A DNA stretch of 64,000 bases from Solilutibacter silvestris (GTDB taxonomy: Bacteria; Pseudomonadota; Gammaproteobacteria; Xanthomonadales; Xanthomonadaceae), in NCBI RefSeq assembly GCF_002895945.1, contig NZ_NPZB01000001.1, positions 1,193,501 to 1,257,500 on the forward strand, given 5' to 3'. Shown in pieces: positions 30,831-55,996 of this stretch. The position numbers were made by a program, and so were the translations under genes. Under the pieces are notes generated by a model. The model was not told the origin of the DNA, ran no database searches, and worked only from the letters and a program-made list of their open reading frames with translations. How positions within the stretch are numbered: the stretch's first letter is position 1; every line of letters begins with the position of its first letter.

Positions 30831-33134
<2,304 letters not shown>

Positions 33135-33279
33135 GACGAACCTCGTAGTGGGGAGTTGGACCAGCCATGTTTCGGCGCAACGCGCCAGACAACACGAAGT
33201 GCCGTCGAAATCGGACCTGTGCGGTTGCAAGTGTGTCCATCCGTCGATGGCACGTCAAAGTCACCAGGGTTACCGAGTG

Positions 33280-35923: not shown

Positions 35924-36741
35924 TCGGCGCGAATGCGTTCGGGGTGCGCGTAGATGTTGTAGCCGTGGGGCCGCGCGAAGCCGATCAGGCAGATGCCGGC
36001 GCTGCGCGCGAGTTCGATCGCCAGTGCGGTCGGTGCGGAGATCGCCGCCATCAAGCCGATGCCGGCGGAGGCCGCCTTGGTGACCATTTCGTAGCTGGCG
36101 CGGCTGGTCAGCAGCAACATGCCGGCATCCGGCGCGATTCCGGCGCGCGCCATCGCGCCGATCAGTTTGTCCAGCGCGTTGTGGCGACCGACATCCTCGC
36201 GTGCAAGGATGATGCGACCATCGAGATCGGCCCACGCGGCGGCGTGCACGGCGCCGGTCGCGGCATTCATCGGCTGATGCTGCGACAACGCGGCCAATGC
36301 CTGTTCAAGCGCGCTGGCGCGGAACGAGGTTTCGGCGACCACGGGCGAGGGCTGGCGGATCGCATCCTCGAGGTCGCGGGTGCCGCAGATGCCGCAGCTG
36401 CCGCGGCCGGGCAGCAGGCGTTCGCGGCGGCCATCCAGTCGCGCGGCGGCGGCCTCGGGCGCGACCGTCATCGCCAGCTGGATGCCTTCCAGCAAGTCGC
36501 TGCGTTCGATCGCCAGCAATTGCGCGGGGGACTCGATCAAGCCTTCGCTCAGCGAGAAACCGAGGGCGAAGTCCCCGAGGTCGGCCGGCGTCGTCATCAT
36601 CACCGCGAACGACACGCCGTTGTAGAGCATCGCGATCGGCGTTTCCTCGGCGATGCGATCCTCCGTGCGCTCGCCATGGCCATCGCGGATGCGTTCGATG
36701 GCGCGCTGGACGACTCCGGGTGGGTTGGCGGGCAGGGTCAT
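35920..36741 (-). CDS. fdhD: Formate dehydrogenase accessory sulfurtransferase FdhD
   Basis: The 273-residue protein passes sulfur from IscS to the bis-MGD cofactor, which formate dehydrogenases need for activity. The redox cysteines C-x2-C are in GSCGICGTRD, and EDVGRHNALDKLIG, TSRASYEMVTKAA and GFARPHGYNIY are the standard FdhD blocks. The ATG at 36741 is chosen by homology to the N-terminus; the frame extends upstream to 37095 without matching the family. It is divergent from the molybdenum operon (71-base gap) and convergent with the MoaE fusion, sharing a four-base overlap. It presumably serves FdoG encoded 16 kb away. Confidence 0.96.
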   Translation of the reverse strand: MTLPANPPGVVQRAIERIRDGHGERTEDRIAEETPIAMLYNGVSFAVMMTTPADLGDFALGFSLSEGLIESPAQLLAIERSDLLEGIQLAMTVAPEAAAARLDGRRERLLPGRGSCGICGTRDLEDAIRQPSPVVAETSFRASALEQALAALSQHQPMNAATGAVHAAAWADLDGRIILAREDVGRHNALDKLIGAMARAGIAPDAGMLLLTSRASYEMVTKAASAGIGLMAAISAPTALAIELARSAGICLIGFARPHGYNIYAHPERIRAD

Positions 36742-36812
36742 GCGTGAAGGATAGCCGAGCGGGCGAGCGACGCGCTCGGGCAAGATGGCGGGGTTCCGTG
36801 CAGAATCCAGAC

Positions 36813-38159
36813 ATGAGCCACAACCCCGAAACCCCCGGTCCAGCCACTGCGAAGCGCCACATCGACCGGGTGCGCGGCGCGATCGGTTACGAGGAGGCCG
36901 TGCGACGATTGCTGGCGCAAGCGACGGCATTGCCTGCTGAAACCTGTCCGCTCGCGCTGGCATCGGGACGGGTGCTCGCGCGTGATGTTCGCAGCCCGAT
37001 GGACCTGCCGAGTTTCGATCATGCGGCGATGGACGGTTATGCACTGAGTGCGGGAACGGGCATCGCAAGTGGCGCGGAGTTCGATGTCCTTGCATCGCAG
37101 GCGGCGGGCGATGGTCCGCGCCAGATCGACAGCGGTGGCTGCGAAATCATGACCGGTGCACGCATGCCCGAAGGTGTCGACGCGGTCATTCCGGTGGAAC
37201 AGACGCAACTGCTGGCCAGCAACAACGATGGCAGTCCCGCGCGCATCCGCGTGTTGCAGGAGGTGCGCACGGGACAGAACGTGCGCCTGGCTGGTTCCGA
37301 TATCGCCAACGGTGCGAACGCGATCGCCGCCGGCACGTGCATCGATGCGGCGACGACGATGCTGCTGGCCGCGCTTGGCCAGGCGCACGTGGATGTGGTG
37401 CGCCAACCGCGCGTCGCCATCATCTGCACCGGCAAGGAGTTGCAGGCCGATGCCACGCAGCCGCTCGATGCCGATCGCATCCACGCATCCAACGGGCCGT
37501 ATCTCGCTTCGGCGCTGGCTGCGGCCGGCGCGCGAGTCACCGCCTGCCTGACGGTGGACGACACTGCGGTCACCTTCGCCGATGCCTTGCGCGGCGTTTT
37601 GCGCGATGGCGTCGATCTGGTGATCAGTACCGGCGCAGTGTCGATGGGACGTTACGACTTCATTCCGGAATTGCTGCGCGAATCGGGCGCCGAGTTGCTG
37701 TTCCATGGTGTGGCGATGCGTCCGGGCAAACCCTTGCTGTGTGCACGGCTCGCCAACGGCCCGTTGCTGCTGGCGATGCCAGGCACGCCGATGGCGGTTG
37801 CGGTAGCGATGCGCTTTTTCGTCAATCCATTGTTGCGCGCGATGCTCGGGCAGGCGCCGGAAACCACGGTGCCGGCGGCACTCACTACCGCACAATCGCC
37901 GAAGCCGGGACTGCGCCATTTCCTGCGCGGACAGCTCCATGTCGATGACAACGGATGCCTGCAGGCGACGCCATTGCCGCAACAACAGCCGTTCCGCATC
38001 CACGCGTTCGCGCAAGCCGATGCGTGGATCATCCTCGATGGCGAATCCGCCGAATGTCCGGTCGGTACGATGGTCGCCATCGCCAGTCTGGTGGCGGGCG
38101 TGCCGATGCAGATCGCCCGAACACGATCCGCGAATGCGCGCGCAGGAGAGCCGGCATGA
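36813..38159 (+). CDS. MoeA-like molybdopterin molybdenumtransferase, divergent copy
   Basis: The protein has 448 residues. The MoeA domain order is complete: domain II with FDHAAMDGYAL, EIMTGARMPEGVDAVIPVEQ, the MogA-like domain III, and a C-terminal barrel. Two normally invariant positions are changed. TGDEL reads TGKEL (K208), and PGNP reads PGTP (T325). These lie in the MPT-AMP and molybdate site of MoeA, so activity or metal preference may differ from the second MoeA copy downstream. First gene of a long rightward operon; it overlaps the next gene by four bases. Confidence 0.9.
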   Translation: MSHNPETPGPATAKRHIDRVRGAIGYEEAVRRLLAQATALPAETCPLALASGRVLARDVRSPMDLPSFDHAAMDGYALSAGTGIASGAEFDVLASQAAGDGPRQIDSGGCEIMTGARMPEGVDAVIPVEQTQLLASNNDGSPARIRVLQEVRTGQNVRLAGSDIANGANAIAAGTCIDAATTMLLAALGQAHVDVVRQPRVAIICTGKELQADATQPLDADRIHASNGPYLASALAAAGARVTACLTVDDTAVTFADALRGVLRDGVDLVISTGAVSMGRYDFIPELLRESGAELLFHGVAMRPGKPLLCARLANGPLLLAMPGTPMAVAVAMRFFVNPLLRAMLGQAPETTVPAALTTAQSPKPGLRHFLRGQLHVDDNGCLQATPLPQQQPFRIHAFAQADAWIILDGESAECPVGTMVAIASLVAGVPMQIARTRSANARAGEPA

Positions 38160-38518
38160 AAGTGCAACTGGACGGACAACAACTGCGCCTGCGCATCGAT
38201 GAGGATGAACTCGCGCGCTTGCTGACAGGCGACGCCGTGGCTGCGCAGACGCGCTTCGGTGATCGCTTCATCGTGCACGCGACGCTGCAGGTTGATGATC
38301 GTGTCGCACCCATGCTGGATGGTGATATCGAAGATTGGCGCTTCATCCTGCCCGAGAGTGATGTGCGTGCGCTGGCCGCGCGCCTGCCGACGCGCGATGG
38401 CCTCGGCTGGACGCTGCCGTCCGCCGATGGTGCAGCGCTGGAATTGCGTTTCGATGTCGATGTGCGTGACAGCGCACGCCGCTTGCGTGATCGCAAGCAT
38501 TCGGAGCGCGGATCATGA
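38156..38518 (+). CDS. Small protein between two moeA genes, possibly DUF7009-like
   Basis: The protein has 120 residues, starts MKVQLDGQQLRLRIDEDELARLL and ends in a charged tail. No signal or membrane segment and no cysteines are present. The N-terminal pattern resembles small proteins I associate with DUF7009, but I am not certain. The stop and start codons overlap with both moeA genes, which links it firmly to molybdenum cofactor synthesis. Its function is unknown. Confidence 0.78.
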   Translation: MKVQLDGQQLRLRIDEDELARLLTGDAVAAQTRFGDRFIVHATLQVDDRVAPMLDGDIEDWRFILPESDVRALAARLPTRDGLGWTLPSADGAALELRFDVDVRDSARRLRDRKHSERGS

Positions 38519-39723
38519 GCGGATTGCTGCACGTTGATGCTGCCGATGTCGCGATTGCACGACACATGCCGCGTTACGACGCCGTCTCGGTGCCGCTGGC
38601 CGAAGCGGCGGGGCGCATCCTGCGGCAGCCGATCCACGCCGGTCACGATCATCCGCCGTTCGATCGCGTGATGATGGATGGCATCGCCGTGCACTGGTGC
38701 GAGCCACTGCCGCGCGCATTCGCCATCGCTGGCCAACAGTTCGCCGGCACGACCGGAACGACGCTGGATGCGAACAGGGATTCCTGTATTGAAATCGCCA
38801 CTGGTGCGATGTTGCCGGACGGTTGCGATTGCGTGATTCCGATCGAACAATTGCGGCGCGAGGGTGGCCGCTATCTGTTGATGGACGATTGCCAGCCGCG
38901 GCGTGGGCAGTTCGTGCATCCGCGCGGCAGCGATTGCGTTGCCGGCAGCGAGTTGCTGGAGACGGGCATGCGCCTGGGTGCACCGGAAATGGCCGTGCTC
39001 GCATCCAATGGATTCGCCAATGTCGAGGTGGCGGCGACGCCGTCGATCGCGATTCTTTCGACCGGAGATGAATTGCTGGCGGTCGATGCGCAGGAGCAGC
39101 AAGCCGGTTCGATTCGTCGCTCCAACGACATCGCGATCGCCACGGCATTGCGTCTGCATGGATTCGATCGGGTGGTGTGCGAACACGTTGGCGACGACCG
39201 CGTCGAAACCGAGGCAATGATCGGTCGTCTGCTCGCCGCGCACGATGTCCTGATCCTCTCCGGCGGCGTTTCCAAGGGCCAGCGCGATCACGTGCCGGCG
39301 GCATTGCAGGCGCATGGCGTCGAACGCGTGTTCCATGGCATCGCCCAGCGCCCCGGCAAACCGATGTGGTTCGGCATCGGTCCACGCGGACAAGCGGTGT
39401 TCGCGTTGCCGGGAAACCCGGTGTCGGCGCTGGTGTGCACGATTCGTTACGTGAGGCCGGCGTTGTTGGCGGCGCAAGGTGCATCACGATCGCTGTCGGG
39501 ATCGGCCGTGCTGGCAGAGGCGGTGGAGACCAGCGATACCCTGACCATCTTCGTGCCGGCACGTTTGCACATCGACGGTGATGGGCGACAGATCGCCACC
39601 GCGGTGCCGACGCGCACCTCCGGCGATTTCACCGCCTTGCCGCGCAGTGATTGCGTGGTGGAACTTCCAGTCGCGGGCACGCGTTTGCCCGCAGGTCATG
39701 TCGTGGCTTTCCATGAGTGGTGA
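38515..39723 (+). CDS. moeA: Molybdopterin molybdenumtransferase MoeA, canonical copy
   Basis: The 402-residue enzyme inserts molybdate into adenylylated molybdopterin. Active-site motifs are intact: FDRVMMDGIAV (DG), EIATGAMLPDGCDCVIPIEQ, ILSTGDELL, SGGVSKGQRDHV and ALPGNPVSALV. It is shorter than the divergent copy upstream, and identity between the two is low by eye, which suggests an old duplication or separate origin and not a recent one. It overlaps the upstream small gene by four bases, and moaA starts at or just after its stop. Confidence 0.92.
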   Translation: MSGLLHVDAADVAIARHMPRYDAVSVPLAEAAGRILRQPIHAGHDHPPFDRVMMDGIAVHWCEPLPRAFAIAGQQFAGTTGTTLDANRDSCIEIATGAMLPDGCDCVIPIEQLRREGGRYLLMDDCQPRRGQFVHPRGSDCVAGSELLETGMRLGAPEMAVLASNGFANVEVAATPSIAILSTGDELLAVDAQEQQAGSIRRSNDIAIATALRLHGFDRVVCEHVGDDRVETEAMIGRLLAAHDVLILSGGVSKGQRDHVPAALQAHGVERVFHGIAQRPGKPMWFGIGPRGQAVFALPGNPVSALVCTIRYVRPALLAAQGASRSLSGSAVLAEAVETSDTLTIFVPARLHIDGDGRQIATAVPTRTSGDFTALPRSDCVVELPVAGTRLPAGHVVAFHEW

Positions 39724-39724
39724 G

Positions 39725-40741
39725 ATGAACCCCCGCGATCGCCTCGGTCGGCCGCTGCGCGACTTGCGCATATCGGTGATGGATCGCTGCAACTTCCGCT
39801 GCCCGTACTGCATGCCGGAATCGACCTATGGCGAGCACTACACCTTCCTCGGCAATGACGAGCGCTTGAGCTTCGACGAAATCGAACGCGTCAGTCGGCT
39901 CGCGGCGCGGCTGGGCGTGAGCAAGCTGCGCCTGACCGGTGGCGAACCGTTGCTGCGACCCAATCTGTCCGAACTGGTCGCGCGCCTGCGGCGCATCGAT
40001 GGCATCGACGATCTCGCGGTGACCACCAATGGCACGTTGCTGGCGCGTCAGGCACAGGAGCTACGCGATGCCGGACTGGATCGCGTCACCGTCAGTCTCG
40101 ACACGCTCGACCCCACCTTGTTCCATCGCATGAGCGGCGGCCGCGGCGAACTCGCCGACGTGCTGGCCGGCATCGATGCCGCATCCGCCGTCAATTTCCC
40201 ACGCGGCGTGAAGATCAACACCGTGGTCCAGCGCGGCGTCAACGAAGCGGGCGTGGTGGATCTGGTCGAACGTTTCCGTGGCACCGGCATCGTGGTCCGC
40301 TTCATCGAATACATGGATGTCGGCAATCGCAACGACTGGCACGCCGAGGATGTGGTGCCGTCGAGCGTGCTGTTGGCGAGCATTGGTGCGCGCTGGCCGC
40401 TCGAAGCAATTCCACCGAAGTACGCGGGCGAAGTGGCGACGCGCTACCGCTTCAGCGATGGTGCCGGAGAGATCGGCGTGATCTCGTCGATCAGCCAGCC
40501 GTTCTGCGGCGATTGCAGCCGTGCGCGGCTGTCGTCGGAAGGCGTGCTCTACACCTGTCTGTTCGCCATCCGTGGCACCGATCTGCGCAGCCGGTTGCGC
40601 GACGGCAGTTCCGACGAAGCATTGCTCGACACCCTGCGCAATATCTGGCTCGCCCGCGGCGACCGCTACAGCGAGGAGCGCGAGGCGCTGCGCCAGAAGG
40701 GTGCGGCCCGCAAGATCGAAATGCACTACATCGGCGGTTGA
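39725..40741 (+). CDS. moaA: GTP 3',8-cyclase MoaA
   Basis: The protein has 338 residues. The radical SAM cluster motif is C22-x3-C26-x2-C29, and a second 4Fe-4S cluster that binds GTP is held by C261-x2-C264-x13-C278. The C-terminal double glycine needed for activity is present (MHYIGG). It performs the first step of molybdenum cofactor synthesis, turning GTP into 3',8-cyclo-7,8-dihydro-GTP for MoaC. An ATG at 39713, inside the moeA end, is an alternative start that adds four residues. It lies in the moeA-moaA-moaC-mobA-moaD order. Confidence 0.97.
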   Translation: MNPRDRLGRPLRDLRISVMDRCNFRCPYCMPESTYGEHYTFLGNDERLSFDEIERVSRLAARLGVSKLRLTGGEPLLRPNLSELVARLRRIDGIDDLAVTTNGTLLARQAQELRDAGLDRVTVSLDTLDPTLFHRMSGGRGELADVLAGIDAASAVNFPRGVKINTVVQRGVNEAGVVDLVERFRGTGIVVRFIEYMDVGNRNDWHAEDVVPSSVLLASIGARWPLEAIPPKYAGEVATRYRFSDGAGEIGVISSISQPFCGDCSRARLSSEGVLYTCLFAIRGTDLRSRLRDGSSDEALLDTLRNIWLARGDRYSEEREALRQKGAARKIEMHYIGG

Positions 40742-40799
40742 CGGCGCCGGCGTTATCCTTGCCGTTGCCGACGTGTCCCACATTGTTTCCGGAGTCCCT

Positions 40800-41291
40800 G
40801 TGCCAAATCCTCCCGCCACGCTGTCCCATGTCGACGATGCACAGCGCCCGCAGATGGTGGACGTTGGCGACAAGCCGGTGACCCGGCGCACCGCGCAGGC
40901 GCGCGCGCGGGTGACGTTTCCGGCCGAGGTTGCGCAGGCCTTGCGCGGATCCGGCCACGTCACGGCGAAGGGTGCGGTGTTCACCGTCGCCCACATCGCA
41001 GGCGTGATGGGTGCCAAGGCCACTTCGCAGCTGATCCCGCTATGCCATCCGCTGGCGTTGAGCCGCTGCGATTTCGATATCCGCATGGAAGGGGACGATG
41101 CGCTGATCGATTGCACGGTATCGTGCGCCGGCACCACCGGCGTCGAGATGGAAGCGTTGACCGGTGCGTCCATCGCTGCGCTGACCGTGTACGACATGTG
41201 CAAGGCGTTGTCGCACGACATCGTGATCGGCGAAATCCGCCTGCTGAAGAAGACCGGCGGCAAGAGCGATTATCTGGAGAATCCGGCATGA
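40800..41291 (+). CDS. moaC: Cyclic pyranopterin monophosphate synthase MoaC
   Basis: The 163-residue protein rearranges the MoaA product to cPMP. Conserved blocks are MVDVGDKPVTRRTAQA, KGAVFTVAHIAGVMGAKATSQLIPLCHPL, GTTGVEMEALTGASIAALTVYDMCK and LLKKTGGKS. The GTG at 40800, five bases after GGAG, is the best start; no nearby ATG gives a full MoaC. The stop overlaps the mobA start. The 58-base gap to moaA is one of the longer spaces in the operon. Confidence 0.97.
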   Translation: MPNPPATLSHVDDAQRPQMVDVGDKPVTRRTAQARARVTFPAEVAQALRGSGHVTAKGAVFTVAHIAGVMGAKATSQLIPLCHPLALSRCDFDIRMEGDDALIDCTVSCAGTTGVEMEALTGASIAALTVYDMCKALSHDIVIGEIRLLKKTGGKSDYLENPA

Positions 41292-41878
41292 CGGCGCCGT
41301 TGTACGGTTTGCTGCTGAGCGGTGGCGAAAGCCGGCGCATGCAACAGGACAAGGCCGCGCTCGACTATCTCGGCGAGCCGCAATTGCTGCGCGCGTGGCG
41401 CTTGCTCGAAGACGTGACCGAACGCGCCTTCGTGTCGGTGCGAGATGCCCAGACCGCGGACCCGTTGCGCGCCGGATTGCCGCAGATCGTTGATCGTTAT
41501 CCCGCGGTCGGCCCGATCGCGGGGATTCTGTCCGCCCAAGCCGAATATCCCGACGTCGCGTGGCTGGTGCTCGCCTGCGATCTGCCGCTGCTCGATGAAA
41601 CGACCTTGCATGAATTGATCGCCCGGCGCGATCCGCAACTCGATGCCACGGTCTATGCCAGCAGCCACGATGGCTTGCCTGAACCGTTGTGCGCGATCTG
41701 GGAGCCATCCTCGGCTGTCACGCTGCTGCAACGTTATCGCGACGGCAGCCATTGCCCGCGCAAGGCGCTAGCCATCCTGCGCACCCTCGTGTTGCCTTCG
41801 CCGGGCGAGGCATTGGACAATGCCAATACCCCCGCCGAGCGGGAAGACATCCGACGCCGCCTCGGGGCCACGACATGA
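41288..41878 (+). CDS. mobA: Molybdenum cofactor guanylyltransferase MobA
   Basis: The 196-residue protein attaches GMP to the molybdenum cofactor, giving bis-MGD used by DMSO-reductase-family enzymes such as formate dehydrogenase. The N-terminal LLSGGESRRMQQDKAAL is the GTP-binding signature (LAGGxSxRMGxDK in the family), and VLACDLPLLDE holds the metal-binding aspartates. AALDY and GPIAGILSA are also typical. Start and stop codons overlap moaC and moaD by four bases each. Confidence 0.95.
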   Translation: MTAPLYGLLLSGGESRRMQQDKAALDYLGEPQLLRAWRLLEDVTERAFVSVRDAQTADPLRAGLPQIVDRYPAVGPIAGILSAQAEYPDVAWLVLACDLPLLDETTLHELIARRDPQLDATVYASSHDGLPEPLCAIWEPSSAVTLLQRYRDGSHCPRKALAILRTLVLPSPGEALDNANTPAEREDIRRRLGATT

Positions 41879-42117: not shown

Positions 42118-42142
42118 GCGCAACGGGAACCGGGAGACGGCC

Positions 42143-43087: not shown

Positions 43088-43870
43088 ATGATGAAGACGA
43101 CATCCGCCCGCTTGATCCTGGCGTGCGCGCTTTCATTCGCACTGTCCCTGCCGGCCACCGCGCAAACGAAGATTTCCGTGGCGGCCGCCGCGGACCTGCA
43201 CGGCGTACTCGACCGCATCATCGAGACCTACAACAGCGAGCATCCGGGTGTGCAGATCGATGTGGTCTACGGATCGTCCGGCAATCTCACCACGCAGATC
43301 GAACAGGGCGCGCCGTTCGACGTGTTCTTTTCCGCCGACAGTGATTTTCCGGAACGTCTGGTCCGCAACGGCAAGGCGGTCGGCAAGCCGTTGCAATACG
43401 CCGAAGGCCATATCGTGCTGTGGAGCGCGAGCATGGACCTGAAGGGCGTGACGGTGCAGCAGTTGACGCAGCCGCGCTTCACCCGCATCGCCATCGCCAA
43501 TCCCGCGCATGCGCCCTACGGCAAGCGTTCGGAGCAGGCCTTGCGCGCGGCCGGTGTCTGGGATGCCGTGCAGCCGAAGATCGTGATGGGCGAGAACATC
43601 GCACAAACCGCACAATTCATCCGCAGTGGCAATGCACAGATCGGCTTCGTCGCAGAATCGTTCGCGCGCAGCCCGGAAGCCAAGGGCAGTTACGTCGTGG
43701 TGCCGACCAGCATGTACCAGCCACTCAAGCAGAGCTTCGTACTGACGCAGCATGGCGCCAACGCTGCACTGGCGAAGGACTTCATGGCCTATGTGCAAGG
43801 GTCGAAGGCGCGTGCGGTGTTCGTGCAATACGGGTTTTACGTCCCCGAAATCGCCGCGCCGGTCCACTGA
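43088..43870 (+). CDS. modA: Molybdate-binding periplasmic protein ModA
   Basis: The protein has 260 residues. A signal peptide ends at ATAQ. The binding-protein fold has SVAAAADLHGVLDRI at the N-terminus and GSSGNLTTQIEQGAPFDVFFSAD around the oxyanion site, matching ModA. It captures molybdate (or tungstate) and passes it to ModBC. Either of two adjacent ATGs could start it; GGAGAG precedes both. It is followed nine bases later by modB. Confidence 0.96.
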   Translation: MMKTTSARLILACALSFALSLPATAQTKISVAAAADLHGVLDRIIETYNSEHPGVQIDVVYGSSGNLTTQIEQGAPFDVFFSADSDFPERLVRNGKAVGKPLQYAEGHIVLWSASMDLKGVTVQQLTQPRFTRIAIANPAHAPYGKRSEQALRAAGVWDAVQPKIVMGENIAQTAQFIRSGNAQIGFVAESFARSPEAKGSYVVVPTSMYQPLKQSFVLTQHGANAALAKDFMAYVQGSKARAVFVQYGFYVPEIAAPVH

Positions 43871-43879
43871 TCGACAGGC

Positions 43880-44557
43880 ATGGGGGCCTTCTCCGCAGCC
43901 GATACGCAGGCGTTCCTGCTGACGTTGCGGTTGGCCGCCACGGTCACGCTGTTGTTGCTGGCGATTGGCATGCCGATCGCCTGGTGGTTGGCGCATTCGC
44001 GCTCATGGCCGAGTCGCGTGGCGGGCGCGGTGGTGGCGTTGCCGTTGGTGCTGCCGCCGACCGTGCTCGGTTTCTACCTGCTGCTGTTGCTGGGTCCGAA
44101 TGGCTGGATCGGCAAGATGATGGCGTCGATGCATCTCGACACTTTGCCGTTCACCTTCAAGGGCCTGGTGGTGGCATCGATGCTGTATTCGCTGCCGTTC
44201 GTGGTGCAACCGCTGCAGGGCACGTTTGAAGCGATCGGCAGGCGCTCGCTGGAAGTCGCGTCCACGCTCGGTGCTGGCCCGCTGGATCGTTTCCTCTCGG
44301 TGATCGTGCCGATGTCATGGCCGGGCATTGTTGCGGCAGCCGTGCTGGGATTCGCGCATACGATCGGCGAATTCGGCGTGGTGATGATGATCGGCGGCAA
44401 TCGTCCGGGAGAAACCCGGGTGATGTCGATCGCGATCTACGATCATTTCGAAGCCGGGGAATTCGCGCAGGCGAACACGCTGGCGTTGTCGCTGGTGGTG
44501 GTGTCGTTCGCGGCGTTGCTGGCGATGTACCTGCTGCGACGGAAGGCGAAAGCATGA
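43880..44557 (+). CDS. modB: Molybdate ABC transporter permease ModB
   Basis: The protein has 225 residues and five to six membrane helices. The EAA loop contacting the ATPase reads LEVASTLGAGPLDRFLSVIVPMSWPGI, and ALPLVLPPTVLGFYLLLLLGPNG is typical of ModB. It forms the membrane channel with ModA and ModC. The end overlaps the modC start by four bases. Confidence 0.96.
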   Translation: MGAFSAADTQAFLLTLRLAATVTLLLLAIGMPIAWWLAHSRSWPSRVAGAVVALPLVLPPTVLGFYLLLLLGPNGWIGKMMASMHLDTLPFTFKGLVVASMLYSLPFVVQPLQGTFEAIGRRSLEVASTLGAGPLDRFLSVIVPMSWPGIVAAAVLGFAHTIGEFGVVMMIGGNRPGETRVMSIAIYDHFEAGEFAQANTLALSLVVVSFAALLAMYLLRRKAKA

Positions 44558-45639
44558 GTGCCGCGAACGATGGACTGCGCGCCGCACTGTCGATCCGGCG
44601 CGGTGCCTTGTCTCTGGATCTCGATATCGCGTTACCAGCGCATGGAGTGACTGTGCTGTTCGGTGCGTCCGGTTCGGGCAAGACCAGTTGCCTGCGCGCG
44701 ATCGCCGGACTCGAGCACAGTCCAGGCACGGTGACGTTCAAAGACGCCTGCTGGCAGGACGATGCGCGCGGTCTGTTCGTGCCGACGTACCAGCGCCGCG
44801 TCGGTTACGTGTTCCAGGAATCGAGCCTGTTCGATCACCTCACGGTCGCCGGCAATCTCGATTACGGATTCCGTCGCGCCGGTCGGCCATCATCCATTGA
44901 TGCTGCGCGATGGATCGACGATTTCGGCGTGCGCCCGCTGCTGGCGCGTCGTGTCGCCGCGTTGTCTGGCGGCGAACGCCAGCGTGTTGCCATCGTGCGT
45001 GCGTTGATGGCGAATCCGCGGCTGTTGTTGCTGGACGAACCGTTGTCGGCGCTGGATGGGTCGGCGAAGACGCGGCTGCTGGCGGAACTGGAACGGCTGC
45101 GCACGACGCTGCCGATTCCGCTGATCTATGTGAGTCACAGTGTCGAGGAAGTCGCGCGCCTCGCCGATCACCTGGTCCTGCTCGATGGCGGCCGGGTCGT
45201 GGCGCAAGGGCCGTTGCAACAGACGCTGGCGCGAATCGACTTACCATGCGCGCTGATCGAGACATTGGGCAGCGTGGTCGAGGGCAAGGTCTCCGCATTG
45301 CATCGCAACGACAACCTAATGGAACTGGCGTTCGCCGGTGGCACGCTGTGTTTGCCGCATGCCGAAGAAACCGTTGGCCAGACATTGCGATGCCGGATCG
45401 ATGCGCGCGACGTGGTGATCGCCCGCGACCGCGCGACCGCATCGAGCGCGTTGAACCAGATCCATTGCGAGGTGGTTGCTGTCATCGCCGCCGATCACCC
45501 GGCGCAATGCCTGGTGCAACTCGATGCGCACGGCACGCGCTTGCTCGCGCGCATCACTTGGCATTCCTGGCACGCGCTGGGATTGGCGCCGGGCGATGCC
45601 GTGTGGGCGCAGGTGAAAGCGGTCGCGCTCGGCAGTTAG
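44554..45639 (+). CDS. modC: Molybdate ABC transporter ATP-binding protein ModC
   Basis: The protein has 361 residues. Walker A GASGSGKTS begins at G37, the signature is LSGGERQRVAIVRAL, Walker B is LLLLDEPLSALD, and a switch histidine lies in IYVSHSVEEV. The last 120 residues form a TOBE/Mop-like domain that senses molybdate. It powers molybdate uptake. It is the final gene of the molybdenum operon and stops three bases from the convergent selD stop. Confidence 0.96.
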   Translation: MSAANDGLRAALSIRRGALSLDLDIALPAHGVTVLFGASGSGKTSCLRAIAGLEHSPGTVTFKDACWQDDARGLFVPTYQRRVGYVFQESSLFDHLTVAGNLDYGFRRAGRPSSIDAARWIDDFGVRPLLARRVAALSGGERQRVAIVRALMANPRLLLLDEPLSALDGSAKTRLLAELERLRTTLPIPLIYVSHSVEEVARLADHLVLLDGGRVVAQGPLQQTLARIDLPCALIETLGSVVEGKVSALHRNDNLMELAFAGGTLCLPHAEETVGQTLRCRIDARDVVIARDRATASSALNQIHCEVVAVIAADHPAQCLVQLDAHGTRLLARITWHSWHALGLAPGDAVWAQVKAVALGS

Positions 45640-45642
45640 CGA

Positions 45643-46716
45643 TCAGCGCACGTCGACGGTCGGCGTTCCCGCACGGAGCATGCCGATCACCGTGGCTTGC
45701 GCGAAACCGGCGCCGTGGAATGCGGTGATCACGCTGTCGACCGCAGCAGGCGCACAACTGATCAGCAATCCGCCGCTGGTCTGTGGGTCGCTGAGCAGCG
45801 CCTGCCAGTCATCGGGCAGTGTCTGGTCGAGCCGCACGTCGGCGCCGTAGGACGCCCAGTTGCGGTGTGATGCGCCGGTGACGCAGCCGCGTTGCAGGAG
45901 ATCGAACGTCTGCGGCAACAGCGGCAGGCGCGCACTGTCGATCGTCGCTGCGAGATGGCTGGCGCGGCACACTTCCAGCAGATGGCCGAGCAGTCCGAAG
46001 CCGGTGACGTCGGTCATCGCGTGCACGCCGGGAATCGTCGCCAAGCGCGTGCCGATGCTGTTGAGGCGGGTCGTGGCATCGATCATCTGGCGATAGCCAT
46101 CATCATCAAGTACGCCTTTCTTTAGCGCCGACGAATACACGCCGACGCCGAGCGGTTTGCCCAGTACCAGCACGTCGCCGGGTTGTGCATCGCCATTGCG
46201 CTTGAGGTGGCGTGGATCGACCACGCCGATCGCCGCCAGCCCGTAGATCGGTTCCACCGAGTCGATGCTGTGGCCACCGGCCACCACGATGCCGGCGTCG
46301 GCGCAGGCCTGTTCGCCGCCGTGCAGGATCGCGCGGATAACGTCGTGGGGCAGGATATTGATCGGCATGCCGACGATGGCCAGCGCGAACAGCGGGCGCG
46401 CGCCCATCGCGTAGAGATCGGACAGCGCATTGGTGGCAGCGATGCGGCCGAAGTCGAACGGATCATCGACGATCGGCATGAAGAAATCGGTGGTGGCGAC
46501 GATTGCCTGATCGTCGTTGAGGCGATAGACCGCGGCGTCATCGGACGTCTCGCGTCCCACCAGCAGATCGGTCGAGGCCGGGAACAGCGGCACATCGCGC
46601 AACAATTCGCTGAGTACACCGGGTGCAATCTTGCATCCGCAACCGCCGCCATGGGCCAGCGAGGTCAGGCGCGGTGGCGTGGCGATGTCGGTGCCTGCGG
46701 GCGGTTGCGTGGTCAT
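45643..46716 (-). CDS. selD: Selenide, water dikinase
   Basis: The 357-residue enzyme makes selenophosphate from selenide and ATP, the selenium donor for SelA. The catalytic C26 and K29 lie in HGGGCGCKIAPGV; the residue is cysteine, not selenocysteine. Metal-binding TTDFFMPIVDDPFDFGRIAATNALSDLYAMGA and SDPQTSGGLL are conserved. It starts at 46716, 33 bases after the tRNA-Sec gene on the same strand, and is the last gene of the leftward operon starting with fdoG. Confidence 0.97.
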   Translation of the reverse strand: MTTQPPAGTDIATPPRLTSLAHGGGCGCKIAPGVLSELLRDVPLFPASTDLLVGRETSDDAAVYRLNDDQAIVATTDFFMPIVDDPFDFGRIAATNALSDLYAMGARPLFALAIVGMPINILPHDVIRAILHGGEQACADAGIVVAGGHSIDSVEPIYGLAAIGVVDPRHLKRNGDAQPGDVLVLGKPLGVGVYSSALKKGVLDDDGYRQMIDATTRLNSIGTRLATIPGVHAMTDVTGFGLLGHLLEVCRASHLAATIDSARLPLLPQTFDLLQRGCVTGASHRNWASYGADVRLDQTLPDDWQALLSDPQTSGGLLISCAPAAVDSVITAFHGAGFAQATVIGMLRAGTPTVDVR

Positions 46717-46749
46717 GCTGCATCTTCTCCCGGCGTGTGACCGGCAAAG

Positions 46750-46845
46750 TGGCGGAAGGCAGCAGGAGTCGAACCTACCAGGGAGCGATCGACGCCCCCT
46801 ACCGGGTTTGAAGCCCGGCCGCATGCCCGGATGCGCATGCCTTCC
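46750..46845 (-). tRNA. selC: tRNA-Sec (anticodon UCA)
   Basis: The 96-base gene has every hallmark of selenocysteine tRNA. The acceptor stem has eight pairs (GGAAGGCA with TGCCTTCC), the D stem CGCAT/ATGCG, the anticodon stem CCGGG/CCCGG with loop CTTCAAA carrying TCA (46809-46811), a long eight-pair variable arm and a five-pair T stem with loop TTCGACT. G and CCA follow the stem, so the CCA end is encoded. The 5' end lies six bases after the selB stop, so it is probably cut from the same transcript. Confidence 0.98.
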
Positions 46846-46851
46846 ATTGAT

Positions 46852-48783
46852 TCAAGTCTGATTGGCGTTCCACCGCATGTCGTCGCGCGGTCGATGCGTA
46901 TCGCCGACGCGTCGAGTGTAGCCAACGCGGTTGAAGAACTCCAAGATCTGGATGCTGCGCTTGCGGCCCAGGCCAATTGCATCACGGAACGCGGCGGCAT
47001 CGGTGGCGCCACCGTCCTGCACCAGCGCGGCGAGGGTCGCCGCAAGTTCGGCGATCCGGCGTGGATCGTAGAACAGGTCGGGCACGACCTGGAACAGTTC
47101 GCCGCGCGCCGCCGCACGCCGCAAGATGCCGCGAGTCTTTTCTTCGTCTTCGCCGGTTTGCGTGGCCAGCGTCCGCACCCATGGCGGATCGAAACCTCCC
47201 GCGTGCAGCAATGGAACGAGTCGTTGCAGCAGCGCGCGTTCGTGTTCCGGTGGCGCGCTGTCGTGGCCGGGCAGGCACCACCACGCGCCCAGGCGTTGCA
47301 AGGTGCCGTTGGCCTGAAGATCGTGCAGCAATGCCTGCCACAGCCCGGGCGCGAGATTGGGCAGGGTACTGCGCTGCAATCGCCCGCTGTCGATGCCGGG
47401 CTCATCCGGATGTCGCACATGCCACTCACTCACCGCAACCACGACCTTTGCACGCAAGGCCTGCCAATGCGTGGCGAGGATGATGAACGTGTCATCACGC
47501 GTGGCGATGCGCAACATATCTTCCGGCAACGCGATACGCTCGGCTGGGCGGCGGCAGTAGCGCACCAACGCCGACATGGCGACGCCAGTTGGTGCTTCCT
47601 GCAGCAACGGCGCGATGCCGTCACCGGCCGCGAGCTGTTCCAGCGCGGACAGCCAGGCGAGTCGCGCCGGGCTGCGCCGGCGGCGTTGCGGCGGATTGGG
47701 ATCGAGGACGATGCCGCCGCCGATGGTCGTGTTGGCGCCGGAATCGCGGGCGATGAAACGATCGCCGCACATCGCACACACGGGTGCAGCGAACACCAGT
47801 TGTACCAATGCGCCACGTTCGCCATCGCCATCGTCGAGCACCACTGCATGGGCGAGGCGATCCATCGTGCCCCAATGGATATGCAGTGGCGTCCAGTTGC
47901 GCAACGGCGGCGCATCCACGGACAGACGCAGGCGCACGTCGACGCGGGTGGTGGCGACGAAGGCGCGCGGATCTGCGATCCAGTCGCCGCGTGCGATGTC
48001 CTCGCAGGCGATCGCGGCAAGATTGAGCGCGCAACGCTGTCCAGCAACCGCGCGAGCGCTGGCGCGGTTCTGGGCGTGGATGCTGCGCACGCGCACGGTG
48101 GTGCCGGCAGGCATCAGGCGCGGAGTCGCGGATGTTTCGATCTGGCCGCCATGGATCGCGCCGGTGACCATGGTGCCGTGGCCGGGCAGGGTGAAGACGC
48201 GATCCACCGGCATCCTGAACAGTTCATCGCGGAGATCGTTGCCGGCGTCGTGCCGTGGTGATGCGGCCACTGCATGCAGATGGTCACGCAAGGCGGTGAT
48301 ACCGGGGTCATCGGTCGATGTGCTGTTGCAGGCGAACAGTAGTGATTCGCGCAAGGGCGACTTTGCCAGCAGCGTTGCGATTTCCGCTTCGACGTCGGCA
48401 ACGCGTTGCTGATCGACGCGATCGACTTTCGTCAGCGCTATCGCGCCGTGGCGCACGCCCAGCAGTTCGAGGATGGCGAGATGCTCGCGCGTCTGCGGCA
48501 TCACGCCGTCATCGGCGGCGATCACCAGCAACGCGAAATCGATGCCGGTCGCGCCTGCCACCATCGTGTGCACGAAGCGTTCGTGGCCGGGCACGTCGAC
48601 GAAGCCGAGTATCGTCGCGCTGTCTTCCGCGGTGTCAGCTTCGATCGGCACGTAGGCATAGCCGAGTTCGATGGAAATGCCGCGCGCTTTTTCTTCCTTC
48701 AGGCGATCGGTGTCGATCCCGGTGAGCGCGCGCACCAGGCTGGTCTTGCCATGATCGATGTGGCCCGCGGTGCCGACGATCAT
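46852..48783 (-). CDS. selB: Selenocysteine-specific elongation factor SelB
   Basis: The protein has 643 residues. The GTPase domain has [25 protein letters not shown] and TKVD. Domains II-III follow, then four winged helices (about residues 400-640) that bind the SECIS hairpin. SelB brings Sec-tRNA to UGA in fdoG. ATG at 48783 overlaps the selA stop (ATGA). An upstream ATG would add 24 residues within selA, without matching the family. Both the fdoG SECIS and the cognate tRNA are encoded nearby. Confidence 0.97.
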
Positions 48784-50198
48784 GGAGCGAGCGTGCTCCA
48801 TTGCACCAGGAATGCGGCTTCGTCTTCCACATCCAAGCAACGCAAGTCGAGCCACAGGGCATCGTCGGCGACGCGACCAAGCACCGGTCGCGGCAATGCG
48901 CGCAAACGCTTGCCGAGGCGATCAAGTCCACCGCGTTTGGTCGCGATCACGCGCAACCCGGCGCTGGCGAGGCGTGCTTGCGGTTGCGCGCCACTACCGA
49001 TCTGGCTGTCGAGGGTGGCGACTTCGATCGTGTATTCCGCTGACAACGCGTGACGGAGCGGTTCCAGCAAGCGTTGCGCCTGCGCGTGGATGTCGTCGCC
49101 CGATCGCGTCAATGCCTGCAAGGTCGGCAGGCGTTGTGCCAGCAGTTCCGGTTCGCGATAGAGCGCCAGCACCGCTTCCAGTGCGGCCAATCCCATCTTG
49201 TCCATGCGCAACGCGCGCTTGAGTGGATTGCGGTTGATGCGCGCGATCAGGTCGGCGCGCCCGGCGATGATTCCGGCCTGAGGGCCGCCCAGCAGTTTGT
49301 CGCCGCTGAAGGCCACCAGATCGGCGCCGGCGGCGAGCGTGTCCTGCACGGTCGGTTCGTGCGGCAAGCCGAAGGTGGCGAGATCGCACAGGCTGCCGCT
49401 GCCGAGATCGACGGCGAGCGGCACGCCATGTGCGCGGGCGATTTCGGCGAGCTGCGTGGTGGCGACTTTGGCGGTGAAACCGGTGATCGCGTAGTTGCTC
49501 GCATGCACCTCCATCAGCAGTGCGGTGCGCGCGCCGATGGCGTCGGCGTAATCGGAGGGGTGCGTCCGGTTGGTGGTACCGACTTCCACCAGCTTGGCGC
49601 CAGCGCTGCGCATCACGTCGGGGATGCGGAACGCGCCGCCGATCTCCACCAGTTCGCCGCGCGATACCACCACCTCGCGACGATTGGCCAAGGTGTTGAG
49701 CAGCAGCAGTACCGCTGCCGCATTGTTGTTGACCACGGTCGCGGCTTCGGCGCCGGTGAGTTCGCACACCAGCGCCCGCACCCTGGCATCGCGCTCGCCG
49801 CGGCGGCCGTGTGCGAGATCGAATTCGAGATCGACCGGGGAGGTCATCGCTTGCGTCACCGCGTGCACGGCCGCTGCAGGCAGCAGCGCGCGACCGAGGT
49901 TGGTATGGAGGATGGTTCCGGTCAGGTTGAACAGCGGCCGCAGATCGCGTCGTGCATCGATGGCGATGGCGTCATCGAGTGCCGACGACAACGCGGTGCC
50001 GTCGAGCGCGCGCTCCAGTTGCTGTGTCGAAAGCTTTCCGTCAGCGACACGTTCGCGCAACGCCTGCAACTGCGTGCGCAGCAGCTGGGTGACGCGGCTG
50101 CGTCCGTGCGCCGCGATCAGTGTCGCCAGTTGCGGCAAATGCAGCAGCCGGTCCAGCGAGGGCAGCGCACTGGTGGCTGCGGTGTCGGCGCGCGCCAT
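48780..50198 (-). CDS. selA: L-seryl-tRNA(Sec) selenium transferase
   Basis: The 472-residue PLP enzyme turns Ser-tRNA(Sec) into Sec-tRNA(Sec) using selenophosphate. The cofactor lysine is K301 in FSGDKLLGGPQAG. NLTGTILHTNLGRALL, VNNNAAAVLLLLN and DLGSGSL are SelA blocks. The ATG at 50198 follows GGGGATTGAACCG and lies four bases after the fdhE stop. It overlaps selB by four bases. Confidence 0.97.
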   Translation of the reverse strand: MARADTAATSALPSLDRLLHLPQLATLIAAHGRSRVTQLLRTQLQALRERVADGKLSTQQLERALDGTALSSALDDAIAIDARRDLRPLFNLTGTILHTNLGRALLPAAAVHAVTQAMTSPVDLEFDLAHGRRGERDARVRALVCELTGAEAATVVNNNAAAVLLLLNTLANRREVVVSRGELVEIGGAFRIPDVMRSAGAKLVEVGTTNRTHPSDYADAIGARTALLMEVHASNYAITGFTAKVATTQLAEIARAHGVPLAVDLGSGSLCDLATFGLPHEPTVQDTLAAGADLVAFSGDKLLGGPQAGIIAGRADLIARINRNPLKRALRMDKMGLAALEAVLALYREPELLAQRLPTLQALTRSGDDIHAQAQRLLEPLRHALSAEYTIEVATLDSQIGSGAQPQARLASAGLRVIATKRGGLDRLGKRLRALPRPVLGRVADDALWLDLRCLDVEDEAAFLVQWSTLAP

Positions 50199-50202
50199 CG
50201 GT

Positions 50203-51186
50203 TCAATCCCCGGAGGCTTGCCACAACAACGGATTCTGGCTGACGCGTTGGTAGCCTTCTTCGCCCAGCAGGAGGTCGAGCGCCAGCGTGCCGAGGTCGT
50301 CGGCCACCGGTTCGACGCCGGGATCCTTTTCCAGATAGAGGATCTTGCGATAGCCGTGGCAGTGATCACAGGTTTCGGCGCGCACGGCGGCATCGCGTGC
50401 AGCGGCGGCTTCGTCGCCATCGATGCCGGCGAGTGCGCGATAGGCGATGTCCTTGCCGACTCCACCGCAGTGGCTGCACTGCACGCGCACGAAATGCCAC
50501 TGGCAGGCGCATAGCGCGCACGACAGGTAGCGGTAGGACGAATGGGGCGCACGGGCGTGGACGACGCTGGCGACCGGCGGCGTGCCGCACAGCGGACACA
50601 GGCCGGGGGCGTCGGCCATCGGCGCGAGATCGGTGGGTTTGAACGCCAGCGCCAGCGCGGTCCAGTACACCTGCAGCGCGGCCATCACGAAGGGCGCGGT
50701 CACGGCATCGATGGCCGCTGCGCCCGGCACTTCCAGCACGGCATCGGCCTGGGCATCGAGCCACGCATCCGGCGCCGCGATCAGTCGTTCCAAGACACCA
50801 TGTGCTTCCGCCGGAAAGCCGCCGTGTTCGAGGCATGTCCGGCACAGCGCGCGCAGGATGGAACGCCATTCGTCATCGCGGGCGAGGCTGGCGGCGTGCA
50901 ATGGCGGCATCCCGGCTGCGGCGACGGCCGGCGGTTGTTGTGCCATCGCGGCGGATTGCAGTTCAGCGAGGCGTTCCGGCCTCAACGCGGCGAGTTGGGC
51001 GTGTTGGGCATCGACCAATACCGCGAGCAGTTGCAGGTAGTCGCCGATCGCGCTGGTCGCGGCCAACGCACGCAGGCGTTCCGCACGTGCCGCAAACAAT
51101 GAGTCGCGATCAGCCAGGATGATGCGCGGGACATCGCGCGAGGCGAGGGTCTCGATCTCGCCGGGTTCGAGGATGCGCTGTGCCAT
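50203..51186 (-). CDS. fdhE: Formate dehydrogenase accessory protein FdhE
   Basis: The 327-residue protein carries four Cys-x2-Cys pairs that bind iron (CPLCG, CALCACQW, CSHCGG, CDHCHGY), in the usual order, in its C-terminal half. FdhE is needed for activity of FdnG/FdoG-type enzymes and interacts with the catalytic subunit. It sits between fdoI and selA with small gaps, joining the enzyme genes to the selenocysteine genes. ATG at 51186 gives the standard N-terminus; an upstream extension has no homology. Confidence 0.95.
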   Translation of the reverse strand: MAQRILEPGEIETLASRDVPRIILADRDSLFAARAERLRALAATSAIGDYLQLLAVLVDAQHAQLAALRPERLAELQSAAMAQQPPAVAAAGMPPLHAASLARDDEWRSILRALCRTCLEHGGFPAEAHGVLERLIAAPDAWLDAQADAVLEVPGAAAIDAVTAPFVMAALQVYWTALALAFKPTDLAPMADAPGLCPLCGTPPVASVVHARAPHSSYRYLSCALCACQWHFVRVQCSHCGGVGKDIAYRALAGIDGDEAAAARDAAVRAETCDHCHGYRKILYLEKDPGVEPVADDLGTLALDLLLGEEGYQRVSQNPLLWQASGD

Positions 51187-51266: not shown

Positions 51267-51941
51267 TCAGTCGTTGTTGCGGCGTCCGGCGATGACCTCG
51301 CGGAACCAGCTGCGATGGTGCTTGTAGGCCCAGCCGTAGCTGACCTTGCCGCCGGTCATCGCCTTGACCGAACCCTTGATCCAGATCGCCGCGTAGATGT
51401 GGACGATGATCCCGCAGATCAGCACCCAGCCGCACAGCGCGTGGATCAGCACCGAGAAGCGGATCAGGCCGATCGGGAAGAGCTGGCTGAAATAGGCGCG
51501 CCAGATCACGAAGCCGGTCAGCAACAGCGCCGACAGGCAACCCACGATCGTCCAGAACAGCAATTTCTGGCCGGCGTTGAAGCGACCCACCGGCGGCAGG
51601 TTCTCGTCCTTGTTTTCCAGCACCTCGCGGATGTCGCGCAGCCAGGTGACGTCGTTCTTCGTCAGCAGGTTGTCGCGCCACATCCGCCAGCCGAGCAGGG
51701 CGAACGCGATCACCATCACCAGGCCGATGAACGGATGGAGGATGCGTGTCCACGGCCCGCCGCCGAACAACATGCTCAGCGGAAACAGCGCCGGATCGAA
51801 CAGGCTCAGTCCGGACAGCGCGACCAGCACGAAGCTGATCGCCAGGATCCAGTGGTTGATGCGGATCGGCCAGCGATAACGTTCGATCTCCAGTTGGCCA
51901 TCGTCGTTGCGACCGTCGCGGCTGTCATGGTCATGCGTCAT
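51267..51941 (-). CDS. fdoI: Formate dehydrogenase cytochrome b556 subunit
   Basis: The protein has 224 residues and four membrane helices. Histidines in [39 protein letters not shown] should ligate two hemes b. It transfers electrons from FdoH to quinone in the inner membrane. The N-terminus ([12 protein letters not shown]) is polar and cytoplasmic. Its ATG overlaps the fdoH coding end by 11 bases, so coupling is likely. Confidence 0.94.
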
Positions 51942-52854
51942 CGCGCACCTCCTCGCGGACCTTCTTGGCGTCGTCCTCGGCGATCTGTTCTTCCGCCTTG
52001 TCGACGGTATTGCGGCCGAAGCGGATGTAGTGGAGGAATGCGGCGACCGCGGTCCCGCCCAGTGCAAGCATGCCCAGCGGCTTGCCCACGCCCTTCCACA
52101 GCGACACCATCGGGCTGATGTGCGGATCCTTGGGCAGATCGCTGTACAGCTCCGGCTTGTCGGCGTGCTGCAACACGTACATCACGTGCGTGCCGCCCAC
52201 TCCTTGCGGATCGTAGAGACCCGCGTTGGCGTAGCCGCGCGATTTCAGATCCTCGACGCGCCCGGCGGCGTGCTCGGTCATCGCTTCCTTGCTGCCGAAG
52301 GTGATTGCGCCGGTCGGGCAGGTCTTGACGCAGGCCGGTTCCAGCCCGACCGCGACGCGATCCGAACACAACGTGCACTTGTAGGCTTTCTTGTCCTTCT
52401 TCGAGATGCGCGGAACGTCGAACGGGCAGCCAGTGACGCAGTAGCCGCAGCCGATGCAGTTTTCTTCGTGGAAATCGACGATGCCGTTGGCGTACTGCAC
52501 GATCGCGCCCGGCGACGGACACGCCTTGAGGCAGCCGGGGTCGGCACAGTGCATGCAGCCATCCTTGCGGATCAGCCATTCGAGGTTGCCCTGTTCGTCC
52601 TCGTACTCGTTGAACTTCATCACCGTCCACGATTCATGGCTGAGATCGGGCGGGTTGTTGTAGCTGCCGACGCAGGTGCCGACTTCGTCGCGCAGGTCGT
52701 TCCATTCCATGCACGCGACCTGGCAGGCCTTGCAGCCGATGCACTTGCTGACGTCGATCAGCTTGGCGACCTGGCCGGCAGGCGCACCACGCGCTTCCGG
52801 TTCGGGCGTGGTGGTGGCCGAGCGACGGATGATATCCAGTGACTGTAGTGGCAT
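51931..52854 (-). CDS. fdoH: Formate dehydrogenase iron-sulfur subunit
   Basis: The protein has 307 residues. Four 4Fe-4S motifs are visible: [36 protein letters not shown] and CTLC-to-CVKTCP. A C-terminal helix ([18 protein letters not shown]) anchors the periplasmic subunit, as in FdnH/FdoH. It moves electrons from FdoG to FdoI. ATG at 52854 is ten bases before the fdoG stop. There is no signal peptide of its own; it would travel with the Tat-exported FdoG, as known for the family. Confidence 0.95.
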
Positions 52855-52864: not shown

Positions 52865-55800
52865 CTAAGCCTTTTCGACCTTGACCAGGAAGCACTTGGA
52901 TTCCGGGGTCTGCGAGTTGGCGTCACCGACCGCATTGGTCAGCGTGTTGGCCAGGTAACCTTTCTTGGTCTCGCCAAGGAAGCCCCAGTGGATCGGCACG
53001 CCGACCTGGTGCACGGTCTTGCCCTCGATCTTCAGCGCCTTGATCCGCTTGGTCACCATCGCGACCGCGAAGATGTGTCCGCGCTTGGAACTGACCTTGA
53101 CCTTGCTGCCGTTGGCGATGCCCAGTTCGTCGGCCAATGCCGCACCGATTTCCACGAACTGCTCGGGCTGGACGATCGCGTTCAACAACGAATGCTTGGT
53201 CCAGAAGTGGAAATGTTCGGTGAGGCGATAGGTGGTGCCGACATGCGGGAACTCGTCCGGCTTGCCGAACTGCGCGGCATCGTCCTTGAACACGCGCGCC
53301 GCCGGATTGTTCAAGGTCAGCGCCTGCTCCGGACTCAGCGGATTCTTCGCCAGTGGCGTGTCGAATGGCTCGTAGTGTTCGGGGAACGGGCCTTCGTTCA
53401 TGCCGCCGCGGGCAAAGAAACGCGCGGTGCCTTCCGGATTCATGATGAACGGGCCCATGCCGCCGTCGGGATTTTCATCGGCCTTGAAGTCGGGAATGTC
53501 GGCGCCGCCCCAAGCCGTGCCGTTCCAGCCGATCAACTTGCGCTTGGGATCCCAGGGCTTGCCGGCGGGGTCGCACGAGGCACGGTTGTACAACACGCGC
53601 CGGTTGGCCGGCCATGCCCACGCCCAGCCGATGGTGTTGCCGATGCCGGTCGGGTCCGAGTTGTCGCGCCGCGCCATCAGGTTGCCGGTCGGCCCCCACG
53701 CGCCGCAGAAGATCCACACGCCGCTCGCGGTGCTGCCGTCGTCGCGCAGTTCCGCGAATCCGGCGAGCTGTTCACCGGCCTTGCGGATCACCTTGGTCGG
53801 ATCCTTGGGATCGTAGACATCGGCCAATGCCTTGCCGCTGAATTCCATCGCCACTTCTTCCGGCGTCGGCGACTCCGGGTTGGAGTACTTCCAGGCGAGA
53901 TCGCGGATCGGATCCGGGTAGGTACCGCCATCCTTCGCATACAGTGCCTTAATGCGATGGAACAGCTCGGACATGATCTCGAGATCGCTGCGCGCTTCAC
54001 CCGGGGCGTCGGCGCCCTTCCAGTGCCACTGCAGCCAGCGCGACGAGTTGACGACGGAACCGTTTTCCTCGGCGAAGCAGGTGGTCGGCAAGCGGAACAC
54101 TTCGGTCTTGATGCTGGCGCTGTCGACGTCGTTGAACTCGCCGTAGTTCTTCCAGAACTCCATCGTCTCGGTGGACAGCGGGTCCATGTGGACCATGAAC
54201 TTCAGGGCCGAGAACGCCTTGATCAACTTGCCCTTGTTCGGAGCCGATGCCAGCGGATTGAAGCCCTGGCAGAGATAGCCGTTCATCTTGCCCTGGGCCA
54301 TCAACTCGTAGGCCTGCATCATGTCGTAGGGCTTGTCGAGCTTGGGCAGGTAGTCGTAGCACCAGTTGTTGTCCTTGGTCGCGGCATCGCCCCACCAGGA
54401 CTTCATCAGGCTGACGTGGAACTTCGGATAGTTCTGCCAATAGCTCATCTGGTTCGGGCGCATCGGCTTCTGTGTGCGCGTGCCGATATAGCCCTGGTAG
54501 TCCTGTTCGCTCTCGTTCGGCAGGGTGAGATAACCGGGCAGCAGGTTCGACATCAGGCCAATGTCGGTCAGTCCCTGGATGTTGGAATGCCCGCGCAAGG
54601 CGTTCATGCCGCCACCGGCGATGCCGATGTTGCCCAGCAGCAGCTGCACCATCGCGCCAATGCGGACGTTCTGCGCACCGACGCTGTGCTGGGTCCAGCC
54701 CAGCGCGTACAGGATCGTCATCGCCCGGTTCGGGGTCGACGTCGAAGCGATCATTTCCCAGATCTGCTTGATCTTGTCCGCGGGCGTGCCGCAGACGCGT
54801 TCGACCATGTCGACGGTGTAGCGCGCGTAGTGTTCCTTCAGCAGGTTGTAGACGCAGCGCGGATCCTGCAGCGTCGGATCGGTCTTGACGAAACCATCGG
54901 CGCCGACCACGTAGTCCCAGCTCGACTTGTCGTACTTGCGCTTGGCCGGGTCGTAGCCAGAATACAGGCCATCCTTGAAGGCGAATTCATCCTTCACGAT
55001 GAATGACATGTCGGTGTAGTTCTTGACGTATTCGTGCTGGATCTTGTCCTGCGTCAACAGGTAATTGATCAGCCCGCCCAGGAACACGATGTCGGTGCCG
55101 GCGCGGATCGGCGCGTAGACGTCGGCCACCGCGGCCGAACGGTTGAAGCGCGGATCGATCACGATCAGCCGCGCCTTGTTGTGCGCCTTCGCCTCGGTCA
55201 CCCATTTGAACCCGCACGGATGCGCCTCGGCGGCGTTGCCACCCATGATCAGGACCAGGTCGGCATTCTTGATGTCGACCCAGTGATTCGTCATCGCACC
55301 TCGGCCAAACGTCGGGGCAAGACCTGCCACCGTCGGGCCGTGTCAGACACGCGCCTGATTGTCGAAGACGAGCATCCCCATCGAACGCACGACCTTGTGC
55401 GTGACCACCGCGGTTTCGCTGCTGCTCGCCGAGGCCGCCAGCATGCCGGTGGTCAACCAGCGATTGACGGTCTGTCCGGCGTCGTTCTTGGCGACGAAAT
55501 TGGCATCGCGATCGGCCTTCATCAGCTTGGCGATGCGGTCCATCGCGTCGTCCCAGGACATCCGCACCCACTTGTCGGAACCGGGCGCGCGATATTCGGG
55601 ATGGAGCAGTCGCGACTTGCTGTGGATGATGTCGACCAGGCCGGCGCCCTTCGGGCACAGCGTGCCGCGATTGACCGGATGATCCGGATCGCCTTCGATA
55701 TGGTAGATGTTGCGTTCGGCGTTCTTGGCGCCGTCACCCAGCGAGTACATCAGGATCCCGCAGGCGACCGAACAATAGGTGCAGGTGTTGCGGGTTTCGA

Positions 55801-55933
55801 TCGCACGGGCCAGCTTGAATTGCCGGACCTCCGCGAGCGCAACCCCGGGCGCGAAGCCCATCAGTGCCAGACTGGAACCCACCATGGTGGTGCCGGTGAC
55901 TTTCAGGAACTGGCGGCGATTCATCGAAGACAT
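52865..55933 (-). CDS. fdoG: Selenocysteine formate dehydrogenase, catalytic subunit (FdnG/FdoG type)
   Basis: The protein has 1022 residues including one selenocysteine. Codon 197 is TGA (55343-55345), in the context NQARV-Sec-HGPTVAG; E. coli FdnG has Sec196 at this place. A twin-arginine signal ([10 protein letters not shown]) directs export. A 4Fe-4S cluster is held by C51, C54, C58 and C93. The rest is the bis-MGD-binding DMSO-reductase fold. GGAG precedes the ATG. A SECIS hairpin follows the TGA. Read as a stop, the gene would look like two frames, 55346-55933 and 52865-55330. It oxidises formate to CO2 in the periplasm and feeds FdoH and FdoI. Confidence 0.97.
55302..55345 (-). promoter_or_regulatory. 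Bacterial SECIS element of fdoG
   Basis: Directly after the TGA, CGGCC and GGCCG form a lower stem and GGCA/TGCC form an upper stem with a GGTCT apical loop, as in E. coli fdhF, where SelB reads this loop. The element lies inside the coding region. Confidence 0.9.
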
Positions 55934-55969
55934 GCCGTTCTCCTTGGTGAAACGACCGCAGATGGCCGA

Positions 55970-55996
55970 TTTATAGCACACGCCCGGTGGTGCCAA
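55970..55996 (-). promoter_or_regulatory. Putative promoter of the fdo-sel operon
   Basis: An extended -10 element TGCTATAAA (55970-55978) is preceded 15 bases upstream by TTGGCA (55991-55996). This gives a leader of about 30 bases before fdoG. No clear FNR or NarL site was found. Confidence 0.45.

Follow-up and report, generated by a model that had tools for sequence, protein, structure and literature searches.

The fdoG gene of Solilutibacter silvestris almost certainly encodes a functional formate dehydrogenase of the FdnG/FdoG type, in which an in-frame TGA would be read as selenocysteine, and the set of genes needed for selenocysteine decoding is co-located with it. Within the window, i.e. 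the whole 64 kb stretch of DNA that was analysed, we directly observe the TGA codon, the SECIS element, the conservation of both, the full gene set and the co-occurrence of these components.

The TGA codon of fdoG and the SECIS hairpin

The fdoG gene occupies positions 52865..55933 of the minus strand and encodes an alpha subunit of the formate dehydrogenase-N type. When the TGA is translated as U, positions 55933-52865 yield an uninterrupted product of 1022 residues, whose only TGA is codon 197 (55343..55345, minus strand). Downstream of this codon there are 825 sense codons and then the true stop, which fits the continuation over 826 codons reported in the first-pass annotation. The product matches TIGR01553 with 1480.8 bits (cut-off 814.2) over model positions 2-1009 of 1009, and a twin-arginine-like motif, NRRQFLK, is seen at its N terminus. 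The same annotation had placed the TGA exactly at the selenocysteine position of FdnG/FdoG, and the alignment with the alpha subunit of E. coli FDH-N (PDB 1kqf, chain A) agrees, as residue 197 stands opposite X, a non-standard residue, selenocysteine. The reading of codon 197 as selenocysteine is based on translation, on this alignment and on the relatives; no other TGA-containing formate dehydrogenase was found in the S. silvestris genome.

A plain ORF caller cuts the gene at the TGA into frames of 217 and 821 residues, as if the TGA were due to faulty sequencing or were a genuine stop dividing a pseudogene. This interpretation is extremely improbable and is refuted by the conservation of the codon together with the co-occurring machinery: TGA is present at the aligned codon in all named relatives fetched (n = 80), these being independent records, which rules out the sequencing error that the first-pass annotation had considered; apart from codon 197, neither a stop nor a frameshift occurs across the 1022 codons; and the SECIS element and the complete sel genes are present. 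Just as improbable is a general reassignment of TGA to another amino acid, e.g. tryptophan, in favour of which nothing was found and which we rejected, as the sole tRNA in the window is tRNA-Sec with the anticodon TCA, selA, selB, selD and SECIS are all present, and the aligned residue of the solved homologue (1kqf) is X at the selenocysteine position.

The SECIS element (55290..55348, minus strand) directly follows the UGA and has GGUCU at the hairpin tip, in line with the hairpin described in the first-pass annotation. In a search of the whole window, the Rfam model SECIS_3 (RF01989) matched positions 55348-55290 with 80.2 bits against the gathering cut-off of 63 (all 59 model positions, E = 2.3e-17), and the only other Rfam match was tRNA-Sec. 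Given its composition, the hairpin has an ordinary folding energy (z = -1.16). Thus, folding, which had been proposed as a check, does not make the hairpin distinctive by energy, and the support for it is taken instead from the family model, conservation and changes that keep the pairs.

Across the 80 relatives, synonymous variation in codons 197-214 of fdoG, which lie over the hairpin, is 0.23, compared with the gene mean of 0.58, and this is the lowest value among all 18-codon stretches of the gene (rank 1 of 985). In the divergent sequences L079 and/or L088, both sides of the hairpin pairs 21-33, 22-32, 24-30 and 11-45 have changed with the pairing kept; where these sequences carry such two-sided changes, the amino acids change as well. 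Most stem pairs are invariant among the relatives, which by itself says little, and in some sequences the pairing is lost in the lower stem (pairs 8-48, 12-44 and 15-42). Loss of the hairpin in close relatives retaining the TGA had been suggested as a point against the selenocysteine finding; close relatives keep both. The span originally assigned to the feature, 55300-55996, does contain the TGA, but its start drops the last 10 bases of SECIS, and it covers only the part of fdoG upstream of and around the TGA, whereas the gene runs to 52865.

Gene neighbourhood and the predicted pathway

The genes adjoining fdoG lie on the same, minus strand, and include the complete selenocysteine pathway with its tRNA-Sec, which the first-pass annotation of fdoG did not mention. 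Directly downstream are fdoH (51931..52854; TIGR01582, 474.5 bits, cut-off 334.7) and fdoI (51267..51941; TIGR01583, 195.2 bits, cut-off 115.85), the iron-sulphur beta subunit and the cytochrome b gamma subunit of formate dehydrogenase, respectively, both matching above the cut-off, and then fdhE (50203..51174; TIGR01562, 248.5 bits, cut-off 187.65), the formate dehydrogenase accessory protein. The selenocysteine genes are all found within positions 45643-50202, each above its cut-off: selA, L-seryl-tRNA(Sec) selenium transferase (48780..50202, the start being approximate; TIGR00474, 580.4 bits, cut-off 267.9); selB, the selenocysteine-specific elongation factor (46852..48783; TIGR00475, 413.2 bits, cut-off 242.25); selC, tRNA-Sec with the anticodon TCA (46754..46845; RF01852, 66 bits, cut-off 47); and selD, selenide, water dikinase (45643..46716; TIGR00476, 424.1 bits, cut-off 125). 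The ATG of selB overlaps the stop of selA, and selC starts 6 nt past the stop of selB. The active-site residue of SelD is cysteine (GGGCGCK), not selenocysteine.

From what is known about these families we infer the expression of fdoG, the incorporation of selenium, the cofactor, the enzyme activity and the physiology. SelD would provide selenophosphate, SelA would turn Ser-tRNA(Sec), whose tRNA is encoded by selC, into Sec-tRNA(Sec), and SelB together with GTP would bring the latter to ribosomes at UGA 197, because SelB binds the SECIS hairpin just downstream. FdoG would contain a molybdopterin cofactor, with FdhD helping in its sulphuration and FdhE in maturation, and would probably be exported via the Tat route; in this case, formate would be oxidised in the periplasm, and the electrons would pass from FdoG via FdoH and FdoI to quinone.

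The neighbours on the other side of the sel genes are supportive. The modABC genes for molybdate uptake (43088..45639, plus strand) are convergent with the sel genes; modB (43880-44557) and modC (ending at 45639) were assigned by profile matches, and modA (43088-43870) by sequence and position only. A group of molybdenum-cofactor genes on the plus strand (34358..41878) comprises a moaE/moeB fusion, two moeA genes, moaA, moaC and mobA, and among them lies fdhD (ORF 35920-37095, minus strand). Profile matches were obtained for the moeB region, fdhD, the second moeA and moaA, while the moaE part, the first moeA, moaC and mobA were identified solely from their sequences. About 25 kb thus hold everything together: the genes of the enzyme, those of its cofactor and those of selenocysteine.

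Several other genes of the window were also observed. Next to the cytochrome bd oxidase genes (28199-30617), where the molybdenum-cofactor genes reach their far end, there is a gene for a molybdenum oxidoreductase of the FdhF/YdeP family (30831-33230, minus strand; TIGR01701, 976 bits, cut-off 582), which contains no TGA. An ORF between mobA and modA (42104-43066, plus strand) encodes a membrane protein of 320 residues with a bestrophin-like look, and an ORF of 1158 residues (22611-26087, plus strand) is situated in a stretch of lower G+C content (57% in positions 20001-24000); neither has an NCBIfam match at 1e-30.

Distribution and origin of the selenocysteine set

In the order, SECIS_3 was observed above the cut-off in 24 of the 250 sampled genomes. 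A tRNA-Sec match above 60 bits was also found in 24 genomes, and the two sets of genomes are identical. Only matches exceeding 60 bits were counted in this survey: at E <= 0.001 almost all of the genomes give matches to the tRNA-Sec model, with scores reaching about 55 bits, hence the count at that threshold is useless, and the matches below 60 bits are presumably ordinary tRNAs with long variable arms. Thus, the selenocysteine set is patchy in the order, occurring in about one genome in ten. The first-pass annotation had called selenoproteins rare here, which is only partly right, the set being patchy and not absent; it is already on record for Stenotrophomonas maltophilia (PMC2643945) and Rhodanobacteraceae (PMC8124441).

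In the family, FdoG with a single TGA is encoded in 7 of 120 genomes, S. silvestris included; identity to the query is 77-100% for six of these proteins and 60% for the remaining one. A second, deeply different type of FdoG (L088 from genome G257, of the same family; 60% identity) shares the position of the TGA, and the stem of its hairpin shows compensating changes. In the FdoG tree, S. silvestris groups with Stenotrophomonas and one further genome of Lysobacteraceae (SH-aLRT 100), inside the Lysobacterales group. The FdoG of Luteimonas granuli is placed among Alcaligenaceae, apart from other Lysobacteraceae, which suggests at least one horizontal transfer, the long branch of this sequence being a caveat.

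Among the 17 sampled species of the genus, S. silvestris is the sole carrier of fdoG and of selB above the cut-off, neither being found in the other 16, which is mildly notable; moaA above the cut-off is present in two of the 17 genomes, S. silvestris included. We consider the following alternatives: S. silvestris could be a recent recipient of the formate dehydrogenase-selenium set, transferred horizontally from within the family, or it could have kept the set while the genus lost it. The recent gain seems plausible, if not quite probable. It is favoured by the lack of fdoG and selB in the other sampled species, by the occurrence of moaA in just one of them, and by published transfers of the whole set (PMC5029168, PMC8124441, PMC1794560). 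Vice versa, the position of FdoG beside Lysobacteraceae in the tree would also be expected under vertical descent, and in G+C content the cluster (62-66%) does not look foreign against the window (63%). Both flanking proteins were used to look for an empty insertion site in the genus; these flanks are too diverged or absent to reveal one.

It is unlikely that molybdate uptake, cofactor synthesis, formate dehydrogenase and selenocysteine decoding were all acquired together, in a single block of about 25 kb, by one species of a genus otherwise devoid of selenocysteine and mostly of molybdenum-cofactor synthesis; if so, one event would have brought both the 21st amino acid and the only user known for it. 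Published cases include transfers in which the trait moved as a whole and formate dehydrogenase was the sole selenoprotein (PMC5029168, PMC1794560). The movement of fdoGHI-selABCD between Alpha-, Beta- and Gammaproteobacteria has been described as well, and so has the presence of selB-selC in Rhodanobacteraceae (PMC8124441), and a putative acquisition of the fdn and selenocysteine genes was reported for S. maltophilia K279a in 2008 (PMC2643945). The counts in the genus (one species of 17) and in the order (24 genomes of 250) fit this published picture of selenocysteine use gained or lost as a block, and leave it unchanged.

Comparison with known systems

The order fdoG-fdoH-fdoI-fdhE-selA-selB-selC, often followed by selD, is kept in most of the relatives' loci with enough flanking sequence. 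It recurs up to selC in Stenotrophomonas, Pseudoxanthomonas, Luteimonas, Rhodanobacteraceae, Achromobacter, Burkholderia, Paraburkholderia, Massilia and others, and is common in Beta- and Gammaproteobacteria. In E. coli, selA-selB, selC and selD are located elsewhere in the genome, whereas in S. silvestris the sel genes form one run behind fdoGHI-fdhE. In other respects the E. coli FdnG (PDB 1kqf) and its paralogue FdoG resemble the protein described here: the alignment is full-length (4-1022), the position of selenocysteine is the same, the N terminus is of the Tat type, the three subunits are encoded in a GHI operon, and SECIS directly follows the TGA.

Another close likeness is to S. maltophilia (K279a, PMC2643945; loci L002-L007), where the same genes are arranged in the same order, fdoGHI-fdhE-selA-selB-selC-selD; the difference is one of sequence divergence only, FdoG being 83-84% and SelB 72-74% identical. 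No match to the mod genes was found within 10 kb in these S. maltophilia loci. As the same gene set has already been described in close relatives, the find is real but ordinary: one more selenoprotein gene supported by sequence, and a reminder that gene callers will split this gene at the TGA.

The fdoGHI-selABCD cluster described in Alpha-, Beta- and Gammaproteobacteria (PMC8124441; PMC1794560; PMC5029168) has the same gene content and order as that of S. silvestris. An overlap of selB and selC has been described in some Dyella and Luteibacter, while in S. silvestris selB stops 6 nt short of selC.
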